64,000 bases of DNA from Mesobacillus jeotgali. Lineage in GTDB: Bacteria > Bacillota > Bacilli > Bacillales > Cytobacillaceae. The position numbers and the translations under genes are program-made. Positions within the stretch are counted from its first letter, which is position 1; the number at the start of each line of letters is the position of its first letter. The notes under the pieces are model-generated. The model saw nothing but the letters and a program-made list of their open reading frames with translations, did not search any database and was not told the DNA's origin. The stretch is from the NCBI RefSeq assembly GCF_900166585.1, contig NZ_FVZC01000007.1, forward strand, positions 310,001-374,000, read 5' to 3'. Positions 30,262 to 61,534 of this stretch are shown in pieces.

Positions 30262-30561
30262 AATCTTATAATAATGGCTATGATGAGAAAAGTAGTTTTG
30301 ATTATTATTTTTAGAGAGCTCCAGTCGGTGGGAAGGAGTAATAATAATCTTAATGAATAAAGACTCGGAGCTTCGCACGGATCTATAACTTATAGTGATG
30401 CAGCGACGGTATCTCCCGTTAAAGAGATAGGGTATTCAGTTTATTTTATAAGTTGCAGTACCCGAAGAGGTTGGTATGGTGACATAACAACAAACTGAGG
30501 TGGTACCGCGAAATTATACTCTCGTCCTCAAGAATTATTTCTTGGGGGTGAGAGTTTTTTT
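30262..30561 (+). promoter_or_regulatory. T-box leader RNA
   Basis: Stem I: GATTATTATT (30300-30309) pairs with AATAATAATC (30340-30349). Above it are AGAGAG (30313-30318) and the distal loop GTCGGTGGGAA. The 5' side of the specifier loop carries GAGAAAAGTAG. The T-box sequence AACTGAGGTGGTACCGCG is at 30493-30510. TGAGG in it can pair with CCTCA (30526-30530) to form the antiterminator. The specifier region TTAATGAATAAAG permits AAT (Asn) or ATG (Met). The bulge TGGT would best match a tRNA with A at the discriminator, which favours Met over Asn, but this is unresolved. Confidence 0.93.
30519..30561 (+). terminator. T-box terminator
   Basis: ACTCTC-GT-CCTCAAG / CTTGGGG-GT-GAGAGT stem followed by seven Ts. 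It is mutually exclusive with the antiterminator. Confidence 0.9.
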
Positions 30562-38642: not shown

Positions 38643-39263
38643 TCAAAGACTTTCAGGGTTCTCCTCAACCAATTTGGTGTAAATAACAGTACGTTCTGCT
38701 CGTTCGGTTGTTTCGGGGTCATAGTCTCCGCTGCAGGTTATCAGATTAAGGGTGCTTGCAAACGAGAAGCCGAAAATGTCTTCGATTGGTGCATCCAGGC
38801 GCGGGAATGTTTTCTGGTCGTATACTTCGAAGGTCAGTGTCTGGCCCTTAGTGCCTGTTACCATGATTTTGTCGCCTTTTTTCAGTTTGTGAAGGTCATA
38901 GAAAACAGCGGGGCTCGTCAGATCGTCTACATGTCCGGCGAGGACGGCGTTTCCGGGAGCTCCGGGCAATGTTCCAGGTTCGTACCAGCCAACATTGTCA
39001 GGATTCTTCGGGACGTCCATGCGTCCGTCCCTCAAAGTGGCTACTTCTTCAATCTTTGTTTTAACATTGATTGCGGGAATTTCTATTGAGGCAGGAACGA
39101 TTCCACTGCGGTTATCTTTGATTATTTCATTTTTTGATTCTGAGAAAGGAACAGATACAGAAGTGGCTTGCTGCTCATTTTTAGGTTCTGTCATTTCAGC
39201 ACCGGGCTGGCTTGTGCAGCCTGCCATCATCAGTGCAACTGCCATTACGTAAAGTTTTTTCAA
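38643..39263 (-). CDS. Class F-type sortase with lipoprotein signal
   Basis: A 206-aa sortase. TTG at 39263 (MKKLYVMAVALMMAGC) with GAGGTG upstream is preferred over GTG 39272. The start is a lipoprotein signal with lipobox ending at C16, so the enzyme should be lipid-anchored outside the membrane, not held by a helix. Catalytic triad: H111 (VLAGHVDD), C177 (LITCSGDYD), R191 (ERTVIYTK), in the order and context of class F sortases. It lies 62 bases downstream of an MPKTG-bearing surface protein, its probable substrate, on the same transcript. Confidence 0.87.
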   Translation of the reverse strand: MKKLYVMAVALMMAGCTSQPGAEMTEPKNEQQATSVSVPFSESKNEIIKDNRSGIVPASIEIPAINVKTKIEEVATLRDGRMDVPKNPDNVGWYEPGTLPGAPGNAVLAGHVDDLTSPAVFYDLHKLKKGDKIMVTGTKGQTLTFEVYDQKTFPRLDAPIEDIFGFSFASTLNLITCSGDYDPETTERAERTVIYTKLVEENPESL

Positions 39264-39325
39264 TGGAGTCACCTCATTAAAAAGGCAGAAGAGAGAAGGG
39301 AAGTGCCTTCTCTCAATCTGGCTTA

Positions 39326-40672
39326 TTATTTTTTGTCAGCAGCAAGACGGCGCATTGTTACGAAGCCTGCAGCTGCAAGGGCTAAAATCGCTGATATCAG
39401 GATTGCCTCAAATGGCAGTCCTTGAGCAGCGGTTCCGCCCATTCCCGTCTTAGGCATTTCAGAAGGCATTTCTGTTTTGAACTTGTCAGGGAACTGGTCA
39501 ACGATGGCTCCGGATAGTCCTTTTGATGTTCCAAACATATGTCCATATGCTTCCCTAACAGCTGGATATGTGCTTGTATAATCCCCGGCAGTGTAGGTAT
39601 CGAAAGCTTTTACTAGCTGGTCCACATGCATTTGCAATCCTTCTGCCAGGGCATCTGCCGGCAGTCTGCCATCGGTTGCTGTCTCGAGGAACTTGGCAAA
39701 GGAATCCTTGTACTGGGAAAGTGCGTTCAAGGCTGCTTTTTTCCCTTCTTCATCATTTGCTCCGGTTGCTTTTACATAATTGACAAAATGCCCGATATGT
39801 TCGGCCCACATCTGTTTGAATTGCTCGCCTGCTTCGTCTCCATATACTGAGGCGATGGCAGCACTTAGGTCCTCGGTGTTGGCAGATAGAGCAGCAGCTG
39901 ATGCTTCAAAATCTTTTGAGCCGTCAATGCCGTTTTGCATCGCTGTTACTGCCAGACCGGCATGCTCTGATAGCAGGTAGTTCAAATCGGAGCGTAAATC
40001 TGCTGCAGGCGTGACAGCCTGGTGGTTTTCAAATTTATCCGGGAATTGCAAGACAATCGCATTGGAAAGGCCTTTGCTCACCATATACATATGGTGGATC
40101 GCTTCACGTTCGTATTCATAAGCTTTTTCATAATCTCCTGCAACATAAGCATTGAAGGCGCCGACCAGCTGGTCCACGTGCATCTGCAGTCCTTCAGCCA
40201 GCGCATCGGCTTCCAGTCGTTTTTCGGTAGCAGTGGAAAGGAAGTTCGAGAAGTCTTCCTTGTATTGCGCCAGTTCATCCAGTGCCGCTTTCTTTGCTGC
40301 TTCGTCGTTCCCTGCAGTTCCTTTCACATAGTCTACAAAGAAACCGATGTGGGCGGACCACATTTCTTTGAATTTCGCTCCTGCTTCATCACCGTATACA
40401 GAGGCAATCGCTGCGCTTAAATCCTCGGTGTTTCCTTGAAGTGCTGCGGCGGATTGTTCAAAGTCCTTCGTGCCATCTACACCTTTTCGCATCGTTTCCA
40501 CTGCTAAATAAACATGTTCACTAAGGAGCTGGTCAAGGGTAGCTCTTAAATCCACTGCTGAATCGGATACTGTAGGAGTTGCGTGATCATGTGCTGCTGC
40601 AGAGTTTGCTGCAACGGGAAGCAAAAGGGATAAGCTGAGTGGGACGGCAATCGCTGCTTTTTTAAAATTCAT
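39326..40672 (-). CDS. Cell-wall-anchored protein with two His-containing helical repeats
   Basis: A 448-aa surface protein. Signal peptide about 1-27; two homologous helical domains of about 170 residues (about 41-215 and 223-398) that share LLSEH, DLSAAIASVYGDEAG, GLQMHVDQLV and KGLSxAIVxQFPDKF. The tail carries MPKTG (406-410), a hydrophobic segment and RRLAADKK, an LPXTG-type sorting signal. Each domain keeps several histidines in the same positions, as a metal- or heme-binding helical bundle might, but the ligand is unknown. AAAGGAGAG precedes the ATG. Its promoter (40709) matches that of the ECF sigma operon at 44.9 kb. Confidence 0.85.
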   Translation of the reverse strand: MNFKKAAIAVPLSLSLLLPVAANSAAAHDHATPTVSDSAVDLRATLDQLLSEHVYLAVETMRKGVDGTKDFEQSAAALQGNTEDLSAAIASVYGDEAGAKFKEMWSAHIGFFVDYVKGTAGNDEAAKKAALDELAQYKEDFSNFLSTATEKRLEADALAEGLQMHVDQLVGAFNAYVAGDYEKAYEYEREAIHHMYMVSKGLSNAIVLQFPDKFENHQAVTPAADLRSDLNYLLSEHAGLAVTAMQNGIDGSKDFEASAAALSANTEDLSAAIASVYGDEAGEQFKQMWAEHIGHFVNYVKATGANDEEGKKAALNALSQYKDSFAKFLETATDGRLPADALAEGLQMHVDQLVKAFDTYTAGDYTSTYPAVREAYGHMFGTSKGLSGAIVDQFPDKFKTEMPSEMPKTGMGGTAAQGLPFEAILISAILALAAAGFVTMRRLAADKK

Positions 40673-40708: not shown

Positions 40709-40738
40709 CTAACGGGAGAAATTTGAGGATGGATCACT
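40709..40738 (-). promoter_or_regulatory. ECF-type promoter of the surface protein/sortase operon
   Basis: On the minus strand: AAGTGATCCAT (-35 core TGATC at 40732-40736), 17 bases, CGTTAG (40709-40714). The same core and identical spacing occur upstream of the ECF sigma gene at 45020-45047. Confidence 0.72.
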
Positions 40739-40783
40739 TTCTGATAGATTTTTTTAAAAAAATCTTTAAAAAGTAAATCAAGT

Positions 40784-40810
40784 AGTCACAAAATGGCTCC
40801 TTTAATCGTT
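40784..40810 (+). promoter_or_regulatory. ECF41-type promoter of the flavoprotein/sigma operon
   Basis: AGTCACA (40784-40790), 16 bases, CGTT (40807-40810), close to the published ECF41 promoter form TGTCACA-N16-CGTC as I recall it. The downstream operon encodes an ECF41 sigma factor, so autoregulation is expected. Confidence 0.65.
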
Positions 40811-40843
40811 ATGAAGGTACAACGGTCAACGGGAGGCAATGAC

Positions 40844-41989
40844 ATGAATCAGCTGAAAACGATTGTGATTATTGGCGGGGGATACGCAGGAATAAATCTT
40901 ATAGCTGCGCTTAAGAAAGAGTTGAATGAAAAAATCAGGGTAATTTTGGTTGATAAAAATGACTATCATTTTAAAAAGGTAAAGCTATTTAAGGGGATTG
41001 TGAACGAAGATGTCTCGAATCTTCATATTCCGCTGAAACAGTATTGCGGTAATATTCAATTAATCCAGGGTGAACTTGTTGGTATCGATCCTGAAGCGAA
41101 AACCATCGACATTTCCGGGGATGATGGAACGTCCTTTCAGCAGGGATATGACCAATTGGTACTTGCTGTGGGAAGTGTACTTCGGGATGTTGACGCAAAT
41201 TGCGGAGGCGTGCCGCTCATTAGCCTGGAAAATGCTCGGGATATTCGGCGGCAGCTTTTAAAAATTGCTGCTTCACCGAAGAGCAATATACGCCTTGCGA
41301 TTGTTGGAAGTGGAATTACAGGTATCGAAACCGCCGCAGAAGTAAATTCATGGCTTAAAGATGAAACGAAAAAAAGGGGAATTCCGAAGAATATAGAAAT
41401 AGTTCTTATTAACGGTTCCCAGAGATTATTAAATGAAGCTCCGGTGAAAGTCAGTTCAAGGCTTGAAAGCAGGCTGAAACAACACGGTATCCAAATAATC
41501 CATAATGCAAAGGCTGAAACATTCGTTGATGGTGAAGTGTGTTTCACTGACGGATCCAAACTGGATGCGGATTTTTGCATTTGGACTGTCGGATTAATGC
41601 CTCATCCGAGCCTTTCCGCATTAGATATCCCCCTTACCGAAGACATGAAAATAAAAGTCGACCCCTGGTATCGTCTTGTTGGCAGCGATAATATTTATGG
41701 GATTGGAGACTGTGTTCATGCAGTTGATCCTAATAGTGGAATAGCCGCGGTGATGAGCTGCAAAGAAGCCATTTCACAGGCCACAAGACTGGCTAAAATC
41801 CTGAAAGCGGATATGGTTGGAAACACAGCTACTGCCCATCAGAACTTTCCGGATTTTCTAAGTATTGGAATTGGACCAGAGGACGGTTTTGTGTGGGCAC
41901 AAAAATGGGGAATTGATGTTGTCTTTTGTGGGAAGCCTGCCAGCAAAATTAGAGAGTATACATGGGAGCTGGCGAGTAAGATCAACTAA
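40844..41989 (+). CDS. NADH dehydrogenase-like FAD oxidoreductase
   Basis: A 381-aa two-dinucleotide-binding flavoprotein of the type-2 NADH dehydrogenase/AIF group. FAD site IVIIGGGYAGINL near the start, NAD site LAIVGSGITGIETAAE (about 148-163), and the second FAD motif NIYGIGDCVHAV (about 285-296). The ATG 40844 follows GGGAGGCAATGAC; the longer frame overlaps the promoter. There is no C-terminal membrane helix, unlike respiratory Ndh. It is the first gene of an operon with an ECF41 sigma factor, which typically controls an adjacent oxidoreductase. Confidence 0.87.
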   Translation: MNQLKTIVIIGGGYAGINLIAALKKELNEKIRVILVDKNDYHFKKVKLFKGIVNEDVSNLHIPLKQYCGNIQLIQGELVGIDPEAKTIDISGDDGTSFQQGYDQLVLAVGSVLRDVDANCGGVPLISLENARDIRRQLLKIAASPKSNIRLAIVGSGITGIETAAEVNSWLKDETKKRGIPKNIEIVLINGSQRLLNEAPVKVSSRLESRLKQHGIQIIHNAKAETFVDGEVCFTDGSKLDADFCIWTVGLMPHPSLSALDIPLTEDMKIKVDPWYRLVGSDNIYGIGDCVHAVDPNSGIAAVMSCKEAISQATRLAKILKADMVGNTATAHQNFPDFLSIGIGPEDGFVWAQKWGIDVVFCGKPASKIREYTWELASKIN

Positions 41990-42013
41990 AAGTACCCGAT
42001 GGGGAGTGTGGAG

Positions 42014-42886
42014 TTGAAGGATCTGTTTTCGGGGTATCGACCACTGCTATTTTCGATTGCTTATCGAATGCTCGGCAGTGTGTCGGATGCAGAAGATATC
42101 GTACAGGATGTGTACCTGCAAATAAGTGAAAAGACGATTGATGAGGTGGAAAATAAAAAAGCTTATCTGTGTAAAATGGTGACAAACAGATGTATTGATT
42201 ATTTCAAATCGGCCCGGTATAAGCGTGAAGTCTATATTGGACCCTGGCTTCCAGAGCCTCTGATTCTAAAAGACCATGACCCGATCTCAGAGATTATGAA
42301 TCAGGAAGCCCTTTCGTTTGCCTTTCTGCTGTTATTGGAAAAATTGAATCCAATTGAGCGAGCCGTATTCATTCTTAGGGAAGCACTAGGATACGATTAC
42401 AAGAAGATTTCGCAGATCGTCGGCCGCAGCGAACCTAATTGCCGAAAAATTTTCAGCCGGGTAAATAACCGATTCCCTTTAAAAGAAGAATTATCAGGAA
42501 AACCTGAACCGAAAAACAAGGAGACGATCCAGGCATTTGTCTCAGCCTTATATCATGGAAACATTCAGAAGCTTGAAGAATTATTAGGTGAAGATGTGAC
42601 CCTGTATTCAGATGGAGGAGGAAACGTCTACGCTGCCTTGAAGCCTGTCAATTCAAGGTATCTGGTTACCCGATTTATTTTAAACATCATAAAGCAAAAT
42701 CAAAATGATGGTGAGTTGCCGATTGTTAATATGGTCAATGTGAATGGTGAGGGCGGCCTGCTGGTAAAGGGTAAGGATAATATTTTGACCGTAATAAGCT
42801 TCCATGTGAAAAGCGATCAAATAGCAGATATCTATATTGTTAGGAATCCTGAAAAATTAAAGCATGTGTCTTTGGGATTCATTTAA
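42014..42886 (+). CDS. ECF41-group sigma factor with fused SnoaL-like domain
   Basis: A ~290-aa sigma factor. Region 2 (about 1-70) and region 4 (about 105-160) are followed by a SnoaL-like domain. ECF41 landmarks are present: GPWLPEPL in the linker, DGGGNV in the C-terminal domain and a terminal NPEKL (NPDKL-type) motif. In studied members the C-terminal domain holds the sigma factor in check and replaces an anti-sigma. TTG 42014 with GGGGAG seven bases upstream is chosen; ATG 41999 (no ribosome site) is the alternative. It starts 24 bases after the flavoprotein gene. Confidence 0.9.
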   Translation: MKDLFSGYRPLLFSIAYRMLGSVSDAEDIVQDVYLQISEKTIDEVENKKAYLCKMVTNRCIDYFKSARYKREVYIGPWLPEPLILKDHDPISEIMNQEALSFAFLLLLEKLNPIERAVFILREALGYDYKKISQIVGRSEPNCRKIFSRVNNRFPLKEELSGKPEPKNKETIQAFVSALYHGNIQKLEELLGEDVTLYSDGGGNVYAALKPVNSRYLVTRFILNIIKQNQNDGELPIVNMVNVNGEGGLLVKGKDNILTVISFHVKSDQIADIYIVRNPEKLKHVSLGFI

Positions 42887-42922
42887 GCTTTGCTTATTTT
42901 TGGAAACACCAGGGAGGTATCT

Positions 42923-43576
42923 ATGGAGGATATCAGGAAAGTGATAAGGCAAAGTAAAACACTTATTGGACCATTTCCGACTTTTAACGTTGAAAACACA
43001 GCGGCACACCCATACGAACTTTTTCTGGAATGGTTTCAGGTCGCAATCGCTAATGGAGTACATGAACCGCACTCTATGACACTTTCAACAACGGATCCTA
43101 ATGGATATCCGGATGCCCGTGTGCTGATTATCAAAGATGTGGATCAACATGGCTGGTATTTCGCCTCCAGTTCAGAAAGTGAGAAAGGGAAACAAATCGA
43201 GCAAAATCCTAATGTTGCAATGACTTTCTATTGGCCGGAAATCGGCAGGCAAGTGAGAATCCGGGGAAAAGCAGTTAAAATGGCTAAAGAGGATTGCGCA
43301 CAGGATTTTTTAAAGCGGGGTACTGTTGCCCGGGCGATTGCTCTGCTTGGAAAACAAAGCACCATTATGAATCGGCAGCAGGATGCTGATGAGGCATTAC
43401 GTAACCAAATGGCCATATTAAGGGAACATCCGGATTTGGTGTATCCTTCATGGACCCTGTACCGGACAGTGCCGGAAGAAGTGGAATTCTGGCAGGCGCA
43501 AGAGGATCGAAACCATATAAGATTAAAATATTTCTTCGAGAAAGATCACTGGTCAAAGCATTTGTTATGGGCTTAG
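42923..43576 (+). CDS. Pyridoxamine 5'-phosphate oxidase family protein
   Basis: A 217-aa FMN-binding split-barrel protein. HSMTLSTTDPNGYPDARVLIIKDVD and GWYFASSSESEKGKQI match the PNPOx FMN site; the C-terminal dimerisation region reads PEEVEFWQAQEDRNHIRLKY. The length resembles true PdxH and PhzG-like enzymes. Bacillus makes PLP by PdxST and generally lacks PdxH, so a salvage or unrelated flavin oxidase role is possible. The ATG 42923 follows CAGGGAGGTAT. It may be cotranscribed with the ECF41 operon 36 bases upstream. Confidence 0.83.
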   Translation: MEDIRKVIRQSKTLIGPFPTFNVENTAAHPYELFLEWFQVAIANGVHEPHSMTLSTTDPNGYPDARVLIIKDVDQHGWYFASSSESEKGKQIEQNPNVAMTFYWPEIGRQVRIRGKAVKMAKEDCAQDFLKRGTVARAIALLGKQSTIMNRQQDADEALRNQMAILREHPDLVYPSWTLYRTVPEEVEFWQAQEDRNHIRLKYFFEKDHWSKHLLWA

Positions 43577-43594
43577 TGAATTAAACTGCAAAAA

Positions 43595-43640
43595 GAAGAG
43601 CCTGAACGGGAAAGGTAAGCTCCGCTCAGGCTCTTTTTTC
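43595..43640. terminator. Bidirectional terminator between convergent genes
   Basis: AGAGCCTGA (43597-43605) / TCAGGCTCT arms, A-rich on the left and T6 on the right. It serves the PNPOx gene on plus and the anti-sigma gene on minus. Confidence 0.85.
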
Positions 43641-43644
43641 ATTT

Positions 43645-44385
43645 TTATAGCTGTGACGCCAAAACGATTTCTCCTTTTGGCTGCTGGCTGTCAGGAGTCG
43701 GTTCGAGTGTGACTGCGATGGTGGTCCAATTGTGCTCCCCTTCGTATTTCACTGAGTAGGTGACGGCACCTTTTCCTTCCGGGTTGGTGCGGAAAGTACC
43801 TGCCCTGAACTTTTCACCCTTGTCATCGATCAGCCAAACCTGGTAGGCTTCATTGCCGGTTAAAGGCTTGAGATTACTGGCCTGGACAACAAGAGCCATT
43901 CCTTCGTCTTTTTTGATCATGGCTGCTTCAGCGTTTCCATCATAACCTTCAGAAACGGCCAATTGCACCTGTTTTACGATTTCATCTGTACCTTCCCGTG
44001 GACTTTCGCTTTGCTCCTGGCCGGATTGGTTCAAATAAAAGTACGCGTTAGCCGATAAGGAAAGAAGCAATGACGCTGCCAGGAGGGGCTGCAGCCATCT
44101 GTAATTCCGGGGTTTCGGCTCCTTTATTTCTAATGGTGTATCCATTTCCTCAGGTTCTTCACTTTCTTCAAAAATGGAAGCAAGGATTCGGTCTTTCATT
44201 CCTTCATTCGGCTCGATCAGTTCTGCTGAAAAAGGAAGATCAGCTGTCAGCATATTCAGTTCCTGCAGTTCTTCTCGGCATTCTTTGCAGGTGTCCAAAT
44301 GATTTTCAAATAACGTTGTTTCCTCATCAGTCAGTGTGTTATTAAAATAATCCAGTAAATCATCACATGTCTTATGGTCGGTCAT
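43645..44385 (-). CDS. Anti-sigma factor, zinc-finger plus RskA domain
   Basis: A 246-aa membrane anti-sigma. The N-terminal ZAS-like region holds H-x3-C-x2-C (HLDTCKECREEL, about 29-40); one membrane helix is at about 97-117; the outside part is an anti-sigma-K (RskA) domain (about 130-246: GNEAYQVWLIDDKGEKFRAGTF). Its start overlaps the sigma gene's end by 14 bases. It should hold the partner ECF sigma factor at the membrane until a signal, often redox or envelope stress, triggers release or proteolysis. Confidence 0.9.
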   Translation of the reverse strand: MTDHKTCDDLLDYFNNTLTDEETTLFENHLDTCKECREELQELNMLTADLPFSAELIEPNEGMKDRILASIFEESEEPEEMDTPLEIKEPKPRNYRWLQPLLAASLLLSLSANAYFYLNQSGQEQSESPREGTDEIVKQVQLAVSEGYDGNAEAAMIKKDEGMALVVQASNLKPLTGNEAYQVWLIDDKGEKFRAGTFRTNPEGKGAVTYSVKYEGEHNWTTIAVTLEPTPDSQQPKGEIVLASQL

Positions 44386-44944
44386 AGCTATGATCCCTCC
44401 CTTCCCTGATCCCGCCGATTGTTTTATGTAGGTGCTTAAGAGCTAATCGTATTCGTCCCTTTACCGTCCCCAGTGGAATCTGGAATGTATCTGCAATTTT
44501 TTGCTGTGAGAGTCCTTTAAAATAAAAAAGCTCCACGATTTGCTGCTGCTCTTCAGCCAGTTGATTGATGGCCGTCCTGATCTCACGGCGTTTCTCTTTC
44601 CACTCAGCCATTTCTTCGACCGAGGGCTCAGAGGATTTCAATGCATCTCGATCCTCAAGCTCGTCATGATTCTCATCCTTTTTACGAAGACAATCAATCG
44701 CAGCATATCTGGTAACGGTCAATATCCACGAAGAAAATTTCCCTTTCGTTTTATCATACATTCCTGGTTTCGTCCACAGTTTGAGGAATACATCCTGTAC
44801 GATTTCTTCTGACAGATCACGCCTGCCAGTCAACCTGTATGCGAACGAAAACAGAAGCTTTTCATATCGGTCATATAACAGCTCAAGTGCCCGTTTATCT
44901 TTTGCCTGCAAACGTGCATAAAGCTCGATATCATGGTCGCTCAT
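44372..44944 (-). CDS. ECF sigma factor (SigK/RskA-partner type)
   Basis: A 190-aa ECF sigma factor. Region 2 about 15-90 (YDRYEKLLFSFAYRLTGRRDLSEEIVQDVF, WILTVTRYAAIDCLRKK), region 4 about 125-180 (EEQQQIVELFYFKGLSQQKIADTFQIPLGTVKGRIR). It precedes and overlaps its RskA-type anti-sigma. AGAAGGAGAAAACA precedes the ATG. The upstream promoter at 45020-45047 carries the motif also found at the MPKTG surface-protein operon, suggesting autoregulation and a shared regulon. Confidence 0.92.
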   Translation of the reverse strand: MSDHDIELYARLQAKDKRALELLYDRYEKLLFSFAYRLTGRRDLSEEIVQDVFLKLWTKPGMYDKTKGKFSSWILTVTRYAAIDCLRKKDENHDELEDRDALKSSEPSVEEMAEWKEKRREIRTAINQLAEEQQQIVELFYFKGLSQQKIADTFQIPLGTVKGRIRLALKHLHKTIGGIREGRDHSYDRP

Positions 44945-45019
44945 TGTTTTCTCCTTCTATACGTATTTTGTAACATCATAACCTATTTATTTAAAGATGT
45001 AATTTTACAGTTTGCTAAG

Positions 45020-45047
45020 CTAACGATTTAAAGAAGGATATAGATCA
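45020..45047 (-). promoter_or_regulatory. Putative autoregulated promoter of the ECF sigma/anti-sigma operon
   Basis: Minus strand: AAGTGATCTAT (TGATC at 45043-45047), 17 bases, CGTTAG (45020-45025), about 75 bases from the start codon. It is identical in core and spacing to the site at 40709-40736. Confidence 0.72.
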
Positions 45048-45245: not shown

Positions 45246-45358
45246 TTTTAAAAAAAGGGAAATGTGCATTTTTTATAGAAATACTGACAAAGATGAGCAA
45301 AAAATGACCGGATTGATGTAAGTAAACTTGATAGGATGTTTTTACGGGAGTGAGTTAT

Positions 45359-46219
45359 ATGGCGTGGATTGAAGCTTTACAAAAGGCAATTGATTATATG
45401 GAAGAGCACTTGCTGGATGAGATTACGGTGGAGGAGATTGCGAAAAAGGCTAATGCCTCTCCATTCCATTTTCAGCGGACGTTTGCGATTTTGACGGATA
45501 TTTCCGTTGGTGAATACTTGCGGCGCAGACGTCTGACGCTTGCAGCAGGTGAACTATGCAGCAGTGATGCCCGGATTATTGACCTTGCGCTGAAATATGG
45601 CTATGACACTCCCGAAGCATTTACAAAGGCTTTCCGCAGGCAGCATGGCATTTCGCCAAGTGAAGCTCGAAAGTACACTGGGAAGCTGAAGTCATATAGC
45701 CGCCTGGGAATCCAGGTGAGTCTGAAGGGAGCGGAACCGATGCAGTACAGAGTAGTGGAACAGGAAGGTTTTGAAGTAATTGGGATTAAAGAGGGATATT
45801 CTTATGGGAATGGAGAAAATCTAGCCGGTATTCCTAAACTGTGGGACAGGGTGAACCAGGATGGAACATGCGATTTCTTGTTGAGTAAAAACAACGGGCC
45901 TGTAAAAGGTGTCCTTGGTGTCTGTGTGGACCAGAGCAAAGTACAGGAGAAGCAGATGGATTATTGGGTCGCTGCAGCATATGATGGAGAAACTCCCGAT
46001 GGTTATTTGAAAATGGAGATTCCAGCATCCAAGTGGGCAATCTTCGAAGTTCATGGCCCAATGCCAGACGCCATGCAAAAAGTGTGGAAGCAAATTTTTA
46101 CCGAATGGTTTCCTTCAAGTGGATACGAACATGCCGGAACACCAGAACTTGAGGTCTATACAGCAGGAAACTCGGCAGATCCGGATTACTATTCTGAGGT
46201 CTGGATACCGGTTAAATAG
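45359..46219 (+). CDS. AraC-family regulator with GyrI-like effector domain
   Basis: A 286-aa regulator. Two helix-turn-helix motifs of an AraC domain at about 5-105 (DEITVEEIAKKANASPFHFQRTF; LKYGYDTPEAFTKAFRRQHGISPSEARK), then a GyrI/SOUL-like ligand domain at about 128-286 (VVEQEGFEVIGIKEGYSYG, WAIFEVHGPMPDAMQKVWKQIF). Such fusions (Rob/BmrR-like) sense hydrophobic drugs. ATG 45359 follows CGGGAGTGAGTTAT. The target is unknown. Confidence 0.88.
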   Translation: MAWIEALQKAIDYMEEHLLDEITVEEIAKKANASPFHFQRTFAILTDISVGEYLRRRRLTLAAGELCSSDARIIDLALKYGYDTPEAFTKAFRRQHGISPSEARKYTGKLKSYSRLGIQVSLKGAEPMQYRVVEQEGFEVIGIKEGYSYGNGENLAGIPKLWDRVNQDGTCDFLLSKNNGPVKGVLGVCVDQSKVQEKQMDYWVAAAYDGETPDGYLKMEIPASKWAIFEVHGPMPDAMQKVWKQIFTEWFPSSGYEHAGTPELEVYTAGNSADPDYYSEVWIPVK

Positions 46220-60141: not shown

Positions 60142-60174
60142 AAAAAAACAGGCTCTATAAAAAGAGCCTGTTTG
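60142..60174 (-). terminator. Terminator of the cold-shock gene
   Basis: AACAGGCTCT / AGAGCCTGTT stem, with seven As at the left giving a minus-strand U tract, 17 bases after the stop. Confidence 0.88.
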
Positions 60175-60190
60175 TAAAATCGATTTAAGA

Positions 60191-60391
60191 TTAAGCTTTT
60201 TGAACGTTAGCAGCTTGAGCTCCACGAGCACCTTGCTCAACGTCAAACGTTACTTTTTGACCTTCGTCTAAAGACTTGAAACCCTCACTTTGGATAGCAG
60301 AGAAGTGTACGAATACGTCGTCTCCATTTTCACGTTCGATGAAGCCGAAGCCTTTTTCTGCATTAAACCATTTAACTGTACCTTGTTCCAT
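60191..60391 (-). CDS. Cold-shock protein (CspB/CspD type)
   Basis: A 66-aa single-stranded nucleic acid binding OB-fold protein: RNP1 KGFGFI (14-19) and RNP2 VFVHF (26-30) are intact. It acts as an RNA chaperone. AGGAGGCAACAAAA precedes the ATG. A long leader with a GTAA-loop hairpin just before the ribosome site suggests post-transcriptional control, as for other csp genes. Cannot be assigned to B, C or D. Confidence 0.94.
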
Positions 60392-60404
60392 TTTTGTTGC
60401 CTCC

Positions 60405-60421
60405 TAGTGCGTTACCGCACA
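60405..60421 (-). promoter_or_regulatory. Leader hairpin at the csp ribosome site
   Basis: Minus strand GTGCG-GTAA-CGCAC (60407-60420): a 5-bp stem with GNRA tetraloop ending two bases before AGGAGG. Confidence 0.5.
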
Positions 60422-61534
60422 ACGTATTACTATCCTTGCCCAAAGTGATCATCAAGACGAAAAGTTTTGATACTTATACAATCCTTTACACCGAACAAAA
60501 ATAATTCTTATTCATCATAACAAGAAACGAAAGATAAAGCAAATCATCGCCGCCACAATATAAATGGTCCATATGAAACTGCAAGGATGCTTTATGGTCC
60601 TTGAACGAACAAATGCATTGATACAAGAGGGTTCAATACTTTTTTGAATTTCACCTCATCAACGAACGGGGCAGGATATAATGAAATATTTGGAACTTTT
60701 TTTAAAACATATGACTAAACAGTAAGAGGGCAGATAGAAGAAAAGTTTTTACCACTTTTTTAACTTTAGTTGTGTTAGTAATAGGGATGATTTGGAGGAG
60801 AGATAGTATCAACACAAGCATAAAGTGAGTACAGAAAATACTGAGTTAATGGTCATATCATCATAAATTTTTATATTGTGAAAATACAGTTATCATTCAC
60901 TCGCGGCTACGTTGATCCAGCAGGATTAACGGCCTTTTTTGTGGAATTCTTTAGTATGCTTACAGAGCAGGATAGTTGAATTTCCGCGGCGGTTGCGCAA
61001 TAAAAGAAATACTAATAGGAGAAGTTGATTGTATTTATGCACCAGAAAAATGTTCGCCAGGTAAACTAAAATAAATCTGAGCTAATAAAAAGATAAAGAA
61101 TTTTACTAAGGGAATGTTCTTGTAATCAATTGAATTTGAAGACGAATTATTTTTAGAGTGATTCCATAATAGTCATTACATAGCTTAATAGCTTTGTTTC
61201 ACGAATATAAGGAATGGAGCGGAAATACATATGAGTAATTGTTTATGGTTACGGGGGATTAATGAAAATCATTGAAAAAACATATGTAATTATAGAAGAA
61301 GTTAATTTATTGCCTAGCTTATTAGGTCAGGGCTATTGAGCGTTTAGGGTATCAAGAGATGATTGCGAGCTTGCGGATAACTTTGCCTGTGTTCTCGATT
61401 ATTGTGGTACGTGTTTATCAACATAAGGCTGCAAAACTATTTGGTTCTTCCCCCTAGTTTCACAACATAGAAATTCTTGGCTAGTAGAGTAATTCAAATG
61501 GCTGGATTATATGTTACTTGAAAGCGGTGATACG
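60422..61534. other. Long intergenic region, no supported gene
   Basis: About 1.1 kb. It should contain the csp promoter on the minus strand. Several short frames (for example one ending GEVDCIYAPEKCSPGKLK near 61070) are too short or broken to call. A GGCAGG-type motif at 60669 resembles the dispersed motif at 30185 and 36683. Confidence 0.45.

Follow-up and report, generated by a model that had tools for sequence, protein, structure and literature searches.

Within a stretch of 64,000 nucleotides from Mesobacillus jeotgali (below called the window, with positions counted from its first letter) two operons are read from the minus strand, one for a sigma factor of the extracytoplasmic function (ECF) type and its membrane anti-sigma factor, the other for a wall protein with the sorting motif MPKTG and a sortase. 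The question raised by this locus is whether the sigma factor serves both operons through one and the same promoter, as a preliminary description of the sequence had proposed. It is very likely, judging from the comparison of genomes, that this regulatory prediction is right and general beyond the window. Expression of its own operon, of the wall protein and of the sortase very probably depends on this sigma factor, because the site is conserved, the sigma and wall-protein genes occur together, the site persists where these genes are unlinked, it stands before some stand-alone sortase genes and it is absent from 17 unrelated ECF genes.

Two copies of one site

The site TGATC-N17-CGTTAG is exact at both places, in the predicted ECF-type promoter of the sigma/anti-sigma operon (45020-45047, minus strand, TGATCTATATCCTTCTTTAAATCGTTAG) and in that of the wall-protein/sortase operon (40709-40736, minus strand, TGATCCATCCTCAAATTTCTCCCGTTAG), and the additional AAG mentioned in the preliminary description lies directly 5' of each. 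The equal spacing that was also claimed holds for the 17-nt spacer only; the start codon follows at different distances, 36 nt for the wall-protein gene and 75 nt for the sigma gene. No open reading frame (ORF) of at least 60 amino acids covers either site. In the window two matches were found against 0.07 expected when a spacer of 16-18 nt was allowed, and two were reached in none of 100 shuffles. Across the genome (4.63 Mb) the exact form gave four matches and the reversed-pattern control two, and for this reason the short form has no specificity by itself at genome scale; the two surplus matches overlap ORFs of the opposite strand (855 and 112 aa). A fuller form derived from relatives, TGATCY-N16/17-CGWTAGS, is found genome-wide only at the two reported places, with no match for its control.

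The ECF sigma factor (44372-44944, minus strand, 190 aa) has the domain pair of its class, Sigma70_r2 with 65.8 bits (Pfam cut-off 24) and Sigma70_r4_2 with 53.2 bits (cut-off 25.7), and its nearest solved relatives are R. sphaeroides SigE and M. tuberculosis SigK. The NCBIfam model of the latter protein (NF007228) gives 117 bits, under its cut-off of 226, and the SigK-type cysteine pair is missing from the translation, which holds a single cysteine. The anti-sigma factor (43645-44385, minus strand, 246 aa) is a membrane protein of the RskA type with a zinc finger, since both zf-HC2 (27.5 bits, cut-off 22.2) and RskA_C (62.7 bits, cut-off 29.4) are above the Pfam cut-offs, and an NCBIfam anti-sigma model is above its cut-off as well. 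The two genes overlap by 14 nt. Behind the anti-sigma gene stands a hairpin with a U-rich tail (43577-43650, minus strand, -25.8 kcal/mol, z -4.99), a probable terminator that is not listed by the terminator consensus scan, which permits loops of 3-8 only. Due to this strong hairpin the wall-protein operon is probably a separate transcription unit in need of its own promoter. Divergent from the sigma operon lies a gene for an AraC-type regulator with a GyrI-like domain (45350-46219, plus strand).

Conservation of the site and its probable tie to one sigma factor

A profile of the wall protein gave 322 relatives in named genomes, and the best 80 of the 322 were analysed with their flanking DNA. 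A sigma orthologue, defined by more than 150 bits, was present in this DNA at 66 of the 80 loci; among the remaining 14 genomes the sigma gene lay elsewhere in 13, and in the last one the contig (L077) is short and begins inside the anti-sigma gene. Upstream DNA was scored letter by letter, out of 14, against AAGTGATC-N16..18-CGTTAG. The 80 wall-protein upstreams scored 14 in 23 cases, 13 in 24, 12 in 14, 11 in 7, 10 in 11 and 8 in one, and the 66 sigma upstreams 14 in 3, 13 in 9, 12 in 12, 11 in 17, 10 in 10, 9 in 10 and 8 in 5. A score of at least 12 is therefore seen in 61 of 80 wall-protein upstreams (0.19% of 1600 shuffles) and in 24 of 66 sigma upstreams (none of 1320 shuffles). Shuffled upstreams of the wall-protein and sigma genes reach at least 11 in 2.3% and 1.7%, and at least 10 in about 20% and 18%, so a lone score of 10 carries little weight. 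When the -35 box, the spacing and a CG start of the -10 box were used as the rule, the site was found at 79 of 80 wall-protein genes and 47 of 66 sigma genes. With its distance limits changed slightly, this rule found the site at none of 17 unrelated ECF genes (an eighteenth locus, L028, was left out for its shorter flank). The common consensus is an A-rich stretch, GTGATCCA and then CGTTAGCT, 16 nt apart counted from TGATCC. By these comparisons the switch site occurs in many related genera, soil and salt-loving bacilli included.

It is very improbable that the likeness of the two sites is due to chance, or that they represent some conserved element that is not a promoter, for instance one bound by a repressor. 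Sites containing GATC can be bound by other proteins; against this reading stand the two blocks at fixed spacing (an identical 16-nt spacer, counted from TGATCC, in 76 of 80 wall-protein sites), the -10 box starting with CGT, the position of the site 30-70 nt 5' of the gene in most relatives and the way it tracks the presence of one ECF factor. The thought that the likeness comes from one conserved block is opposed by the fact that the site is kept at unlinked genes, at some stand-alone sortase genes and next to the diverged upstream DNA of two genomes. In these two (G016 and G018) the DNA just 5' of the wall-protein site is very unlike that of the window, with the site and the leader almost unchanged; site and leader of the wall-protein gene are near-identical in five genomes. 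In 20 genomes the sigma and wall-protein genes are far apart or on separate contigs, and there the site was found at all 20 wall-protein genes and at 16 of the 20 sigma genes, the weakest sigma site (G054) being marginal. The opposite-strand control in these genomes gave 0 of 40 when that rule was applied with distance limits that differed slightly.

The two genes are also found in the same genomes. Among 199 genomes of the order, which represent 97 genera, both were present in 74, the wall protein only in 2, the sigma factor only in none and neither in 123, with a threshold of E 1e-40 for the wall protein (76 genomes) and for the sigma factor (74, all within the 76); scoring was limited to 16 sigma candidates in each genome, and a sigma factor may therefore have been missed. 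In the first 61 genomes, a set that partly overlaps with the 199, strong matches of both proteins occurred in the same 12. The two cases of wall protein only are G124 and a fragment in G230, and both keep the site. Within 4 kb of the wall-protein gene the 80 loci hold the anti-sigma gene in 61 cases, the sigma gene in 57 and the sortase gene in 55, and the next family follows with 12.

Variants of the -10 box by lineage occur at both promoters, namely CGATAG in several Halobacillus and G042 and CGTTTA in G159, G188 and G195. The -10 boxes are identical in 21 of 47 promoter pairs, where permutation gives a mean of 11.5 and a maximum of 20 in 10,000, kinship being uncorrected. The residues of the sigma factor seen to vary together with the -10 box were rejected as mainly lineage signals. 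Tyr80 of the sigma factor, at a position which we take to be relevant to -10 recognition in E. coli sigma E, accompanies CGATAG in 11 of 11 cases, yet in 3 of 53 cases, which include the window, it is found with T at the place concerned.

Between the two operons an inserted cassette on the plus strand (40784-43576) encodes an FAD oxidoreductase, a SigJ/ECF41-like sigma factor (41999-42886; TIGR02957 with 340 bits, cut-off 323) and a PNPOx-like protein. Its sigma factor is a neighbouring ECF factor, and only about 100 nt separate the start of the cassette from the wall-protein promoter, so one may ask whether the common site belongs to this protein. It is extremely improbable: ECF41 factors use TGTCACA-N16-CGTC, as stated in the accessible part of PMC3426412, and the cassette has by eye its own ECF41-like site, AGTCACA-N16-CGTT at 40784-40810. 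Moreover, the distance from sigma gene to wall-protein gene in G016 and G018 is about 940 bp, which leaves no room for the cassette, and both sites are kept; among the 80 named loci a SigJ match was found at L065 only. The cassette looks like an ordinary one of the ECF41 type and offers no explanation of the common site.

Another alternative is a larger regulon of the RskA-controlled sigma factor, with the wall protein as one target among many, which we consider unlikely. It can draw on genomes with more sites (10 in G056, 5 in G042, 6 in G061, 5 in G101) and on sites 5' of YtkA-like lipoprotein genes in G046 and G056 (L145:1573-2376, plus strand; L173:930-1466, minus strand). On the other side, G000, G004, G010 and G018 have two sites only, G016 has those two and one inside an ORF, and one to three sites were counted in 21 of 25 further genomes, all by a strict pattern that misses weaker promoters. 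Thirty extra loci were read, of which 16 were assigned to wall-protein, 3 to sigma and 1 to sortase genes, and the other 10 lie in ORFs or before no recurrent gene. These 10 and the ORF-internal sites were rejected as targets, as was the solute-binding protein of L168, where the site is inside small ORFs. The two lipoprotein genes, of which the first (L145:1573-2376) encodes a protein very rich in histidine, are possible further targets and a hint at metals.

The wall protein and the sortase

The wall protein (39326-40672, minus strand, 448 aa) was described from its translation, structure models and a family alignment. Inspection by eye shows a signal peptide. A helical domain is predicted twice, at about 38-209 and at 222-393, and behind it come MPKTG, a hydrophobic segment and a basic tail, in the C-terminal order of sortase-anchored wall proteins. 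Of 81 ORFs of the family, 80 have a motif of this kind, MPxTG or MPxTA, and its first residue is always M. Nothing in Pfam matched above cut-off, and the only NCBIfam sorting model matched, GVDTG_CTERM, gave 27.8 bits, just under its cut-off of 29. In the models the protein is all-helical, with two copies of one domain of six or seven helices each. Three histidines on separate helices (His53, His108 and His165) are invariant in 31 full-length relatives; the equivalent positions are also histidine in the second repeat and in lone-domain paralogues, three examples of which keep all three at 26% identity. The invariant histidines suggest a bound metal or cofactor.

The family gave 798 matches at E 0.001 among 7998 candidates scored and is probably misnamed in databases. 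Many records carry the name copper amine oxidase, which was rejected, as no such Pfam or NCBIfam domain was found at E 0.001 and the models are all-helical. No solved structural relative was found in this analysis. Two of the most similar database proteins, with 96 and 94% identity, are named Mesobacillus. The lone-domain paralogue is a secreted protein found in many genomes of the same genus, that of the window included (G000:C9:921700-922341), and also at L052, L053 and L056.

The second gene of the operon (38643-39272, minus strand) encodes a sortase, as evidenced by Pfam PF04203 with 84.4 bits (cut-off 26.6); by eye, TTG at 39263 may replace GTG at 39272 as its start. The best-scoring NCBIfam class is F (NF033748), and since its 136.4 bits stay below the curated cut-off of 166 the enzyme is called class-F-like here. 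Ubiquitin entries among its PDB matches were taken as chance, being due to short tandem-repeated stretches. Near its start lies a lipobox-like MAGC, and a pattern of this kind occurs in the first 45 residues of 50 of 58 sortase ORFs (loci L065-L144). Among the eight misses, inspection by eye shows a likeness in five, of which four are of the LFAC type and the fifth has an overlong start, and none in the other three; pattern and eye are the basis of these counts. Judged from these sequences, the sortase of the module probably sits on the membrane through a lipid anchor.

The window sortase has no site of its own. Its gene follows that of the wall protein at a distance of 53 nt, and the strong hairpin between them (39270-39325, minus strand, -21.4 kcal/mol, z -3.45) is a possible partial terminator; a similar intergenic sequence is found in four relatives of the same genus. 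Because this hairpin stands between the two genes, read-through into the sortase may be partial, and it would yield more substrate than enzyme. Some stand-alone sortase genes carry the site, at L171 (G056), L172 (G042), L175, L176/L218 and L191, and by the strict pattern it was found at 7 of 29 sortase genes (29 of 45 were used; L197 and 15 matches without a locus were left out). A longer sortase type of about 300 aa or more was also noticed (L172:509-1462, minus strand, and L175-L187), at L172 with an extension after the sortase domain; in several genomes it has no adjacent site. Elsewhere in the window there are a T-box leader (30271-30532, plus strand) and a region that matches the cspA thermoregulator family (60142-60527, minus strand).

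A probable regulating and anchoring module

Sequence comparison shows a common site that is conserved at both genes; the sigma factor and the wall protein occur together, and genes for the anti-sigma factor and the sortase often accompany them. Several observations weigh against control of the wall protein by this sigma factor. The sigma gene has a weak site or none in 19 of 66, 4 of 13 and 4 of 20 cases in three sets, and G124 has the wall protein and the site with no sigma match. In two of the genomes with unlinked genes, G163 and G243, 183-195 nt lie between the wall-protein site and the assumed start, and a second wall-protein paralogue of G016 has no site. The statistic on -10 covariation ignores phylogeny, and the -10 change could not be assigned to any residue of the sigma factor. 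Finally, 22 of 29 sortase genes are without a strict site; some of these apparently stand behind a wall-protein gene, others belong to the longer type and are perhaps outside the module. Nevertheless, comparison argues strongly for the regulatory half of what the preliminary description had claimed. The part on the sortase is borne out at some stand-alone genes and, in the window, rests on the position behind the wall-protein gene. In all likelihood the sigma factor, the anti-sigma factor, the MPKTG wall protein, the sortase and the two promoters form a self-contained module for regulation and anchoring.

From what is known of the protein families, the membrane anti-sigma factor would keep the ECF sigma factor inactive until a signal frees it, stress being the candidate signal put forward in the preliminary description, and the freed sigma factor would recognise TGATCC-N16-CGTTAGC at the two promoters. 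The promoter of its own operon would give self-amplification together with fresh anti-sigma factor, and the second promoter would give the MPKTG wall protein and the sortase. The latter, held on the membrane by its lipid anchor, would cleave the wall protein at MPKTG and join it to peptidoglycan.

The closest known arrangement is SigK-RskA-MPT83/MPT70 of mycobacteria, together with the minimal mpt83-sigK-rskA cassette of Yersinia, as described in the accessible part of PMC7509140. In both systems an ECF sigma factor and an RskA-type membrane anti-sigma factor stand beside a surface-protein gene with a sigma site upstream. The output differs, for here it is an all-helical two-domain protein with a sorting signal and a sortase, and MPT83 is lipid-anchored. 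A zinc finger is matched in the anti-sigma factor here, whereas M. tuberculosis RskA needs no zinc motif according to the part of PMC7406223 that was available, and the sigma factor here has one cysteine in contrast to C133 and C183 of the M. tuberculosis protein, which appear in plasmid names in PMC7509140. By analogy, the module probably works like the SigK cassette with sortase anchoring as a new output, the cut-offs for SigK and for class F being missed. Class F sortases resemble the window enzyme as its best-scoring class and differ in that it stays below their cut-off, with a lipobox-like start in most of its relatives and substrates ending in MPxTG/A. ECF41 cassettes are alike in that their only detectable targets are genes of the neighbourhood, behind one conserved promoter; unlike the present module, with its anti-sigma factor and TGATCC-N16-CGTTAG, they have no anti-sigma factor and another promoter, as far as the excerpt of PMC3426412 goes. 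Among the papers listed from the open-licence literature of PMC, subscription papers being outside this scope, none describing the present module was found, and none on class F sortase with ECF sigma factor and Bacillus, or on ECF sigma factor with RskA and sortase.

A more far-reaching idea can be offered only tentatively: this could be a widespread, undescribed module of Bacillales in which an ECF factor is dedicated to one act of wall decoration, the anchoring of one MPxTG protein by a class-F-like sortase that is lipid-anchored and adapted to this motif. The histidine-bearing helical protein would bind a metal or cofactor, and its presence on the surface would be reported back to the sensor of the RskA type.

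What class F sortases do is said to remain unknown, and a quadruple deletion in Actinoplanes had no phenotype, both according to the accessible text of PMC13251363; for a sortase of this type a regulator, a promoter and a substrate are now predicted. The set of four genes is small enough to be rebuilt in a laboratory Bacillus. As an ECF/RskA switch with a near-minimal regulon across many genera, it could allow RskA-type sensing to be probed with one clean reporter promoter.

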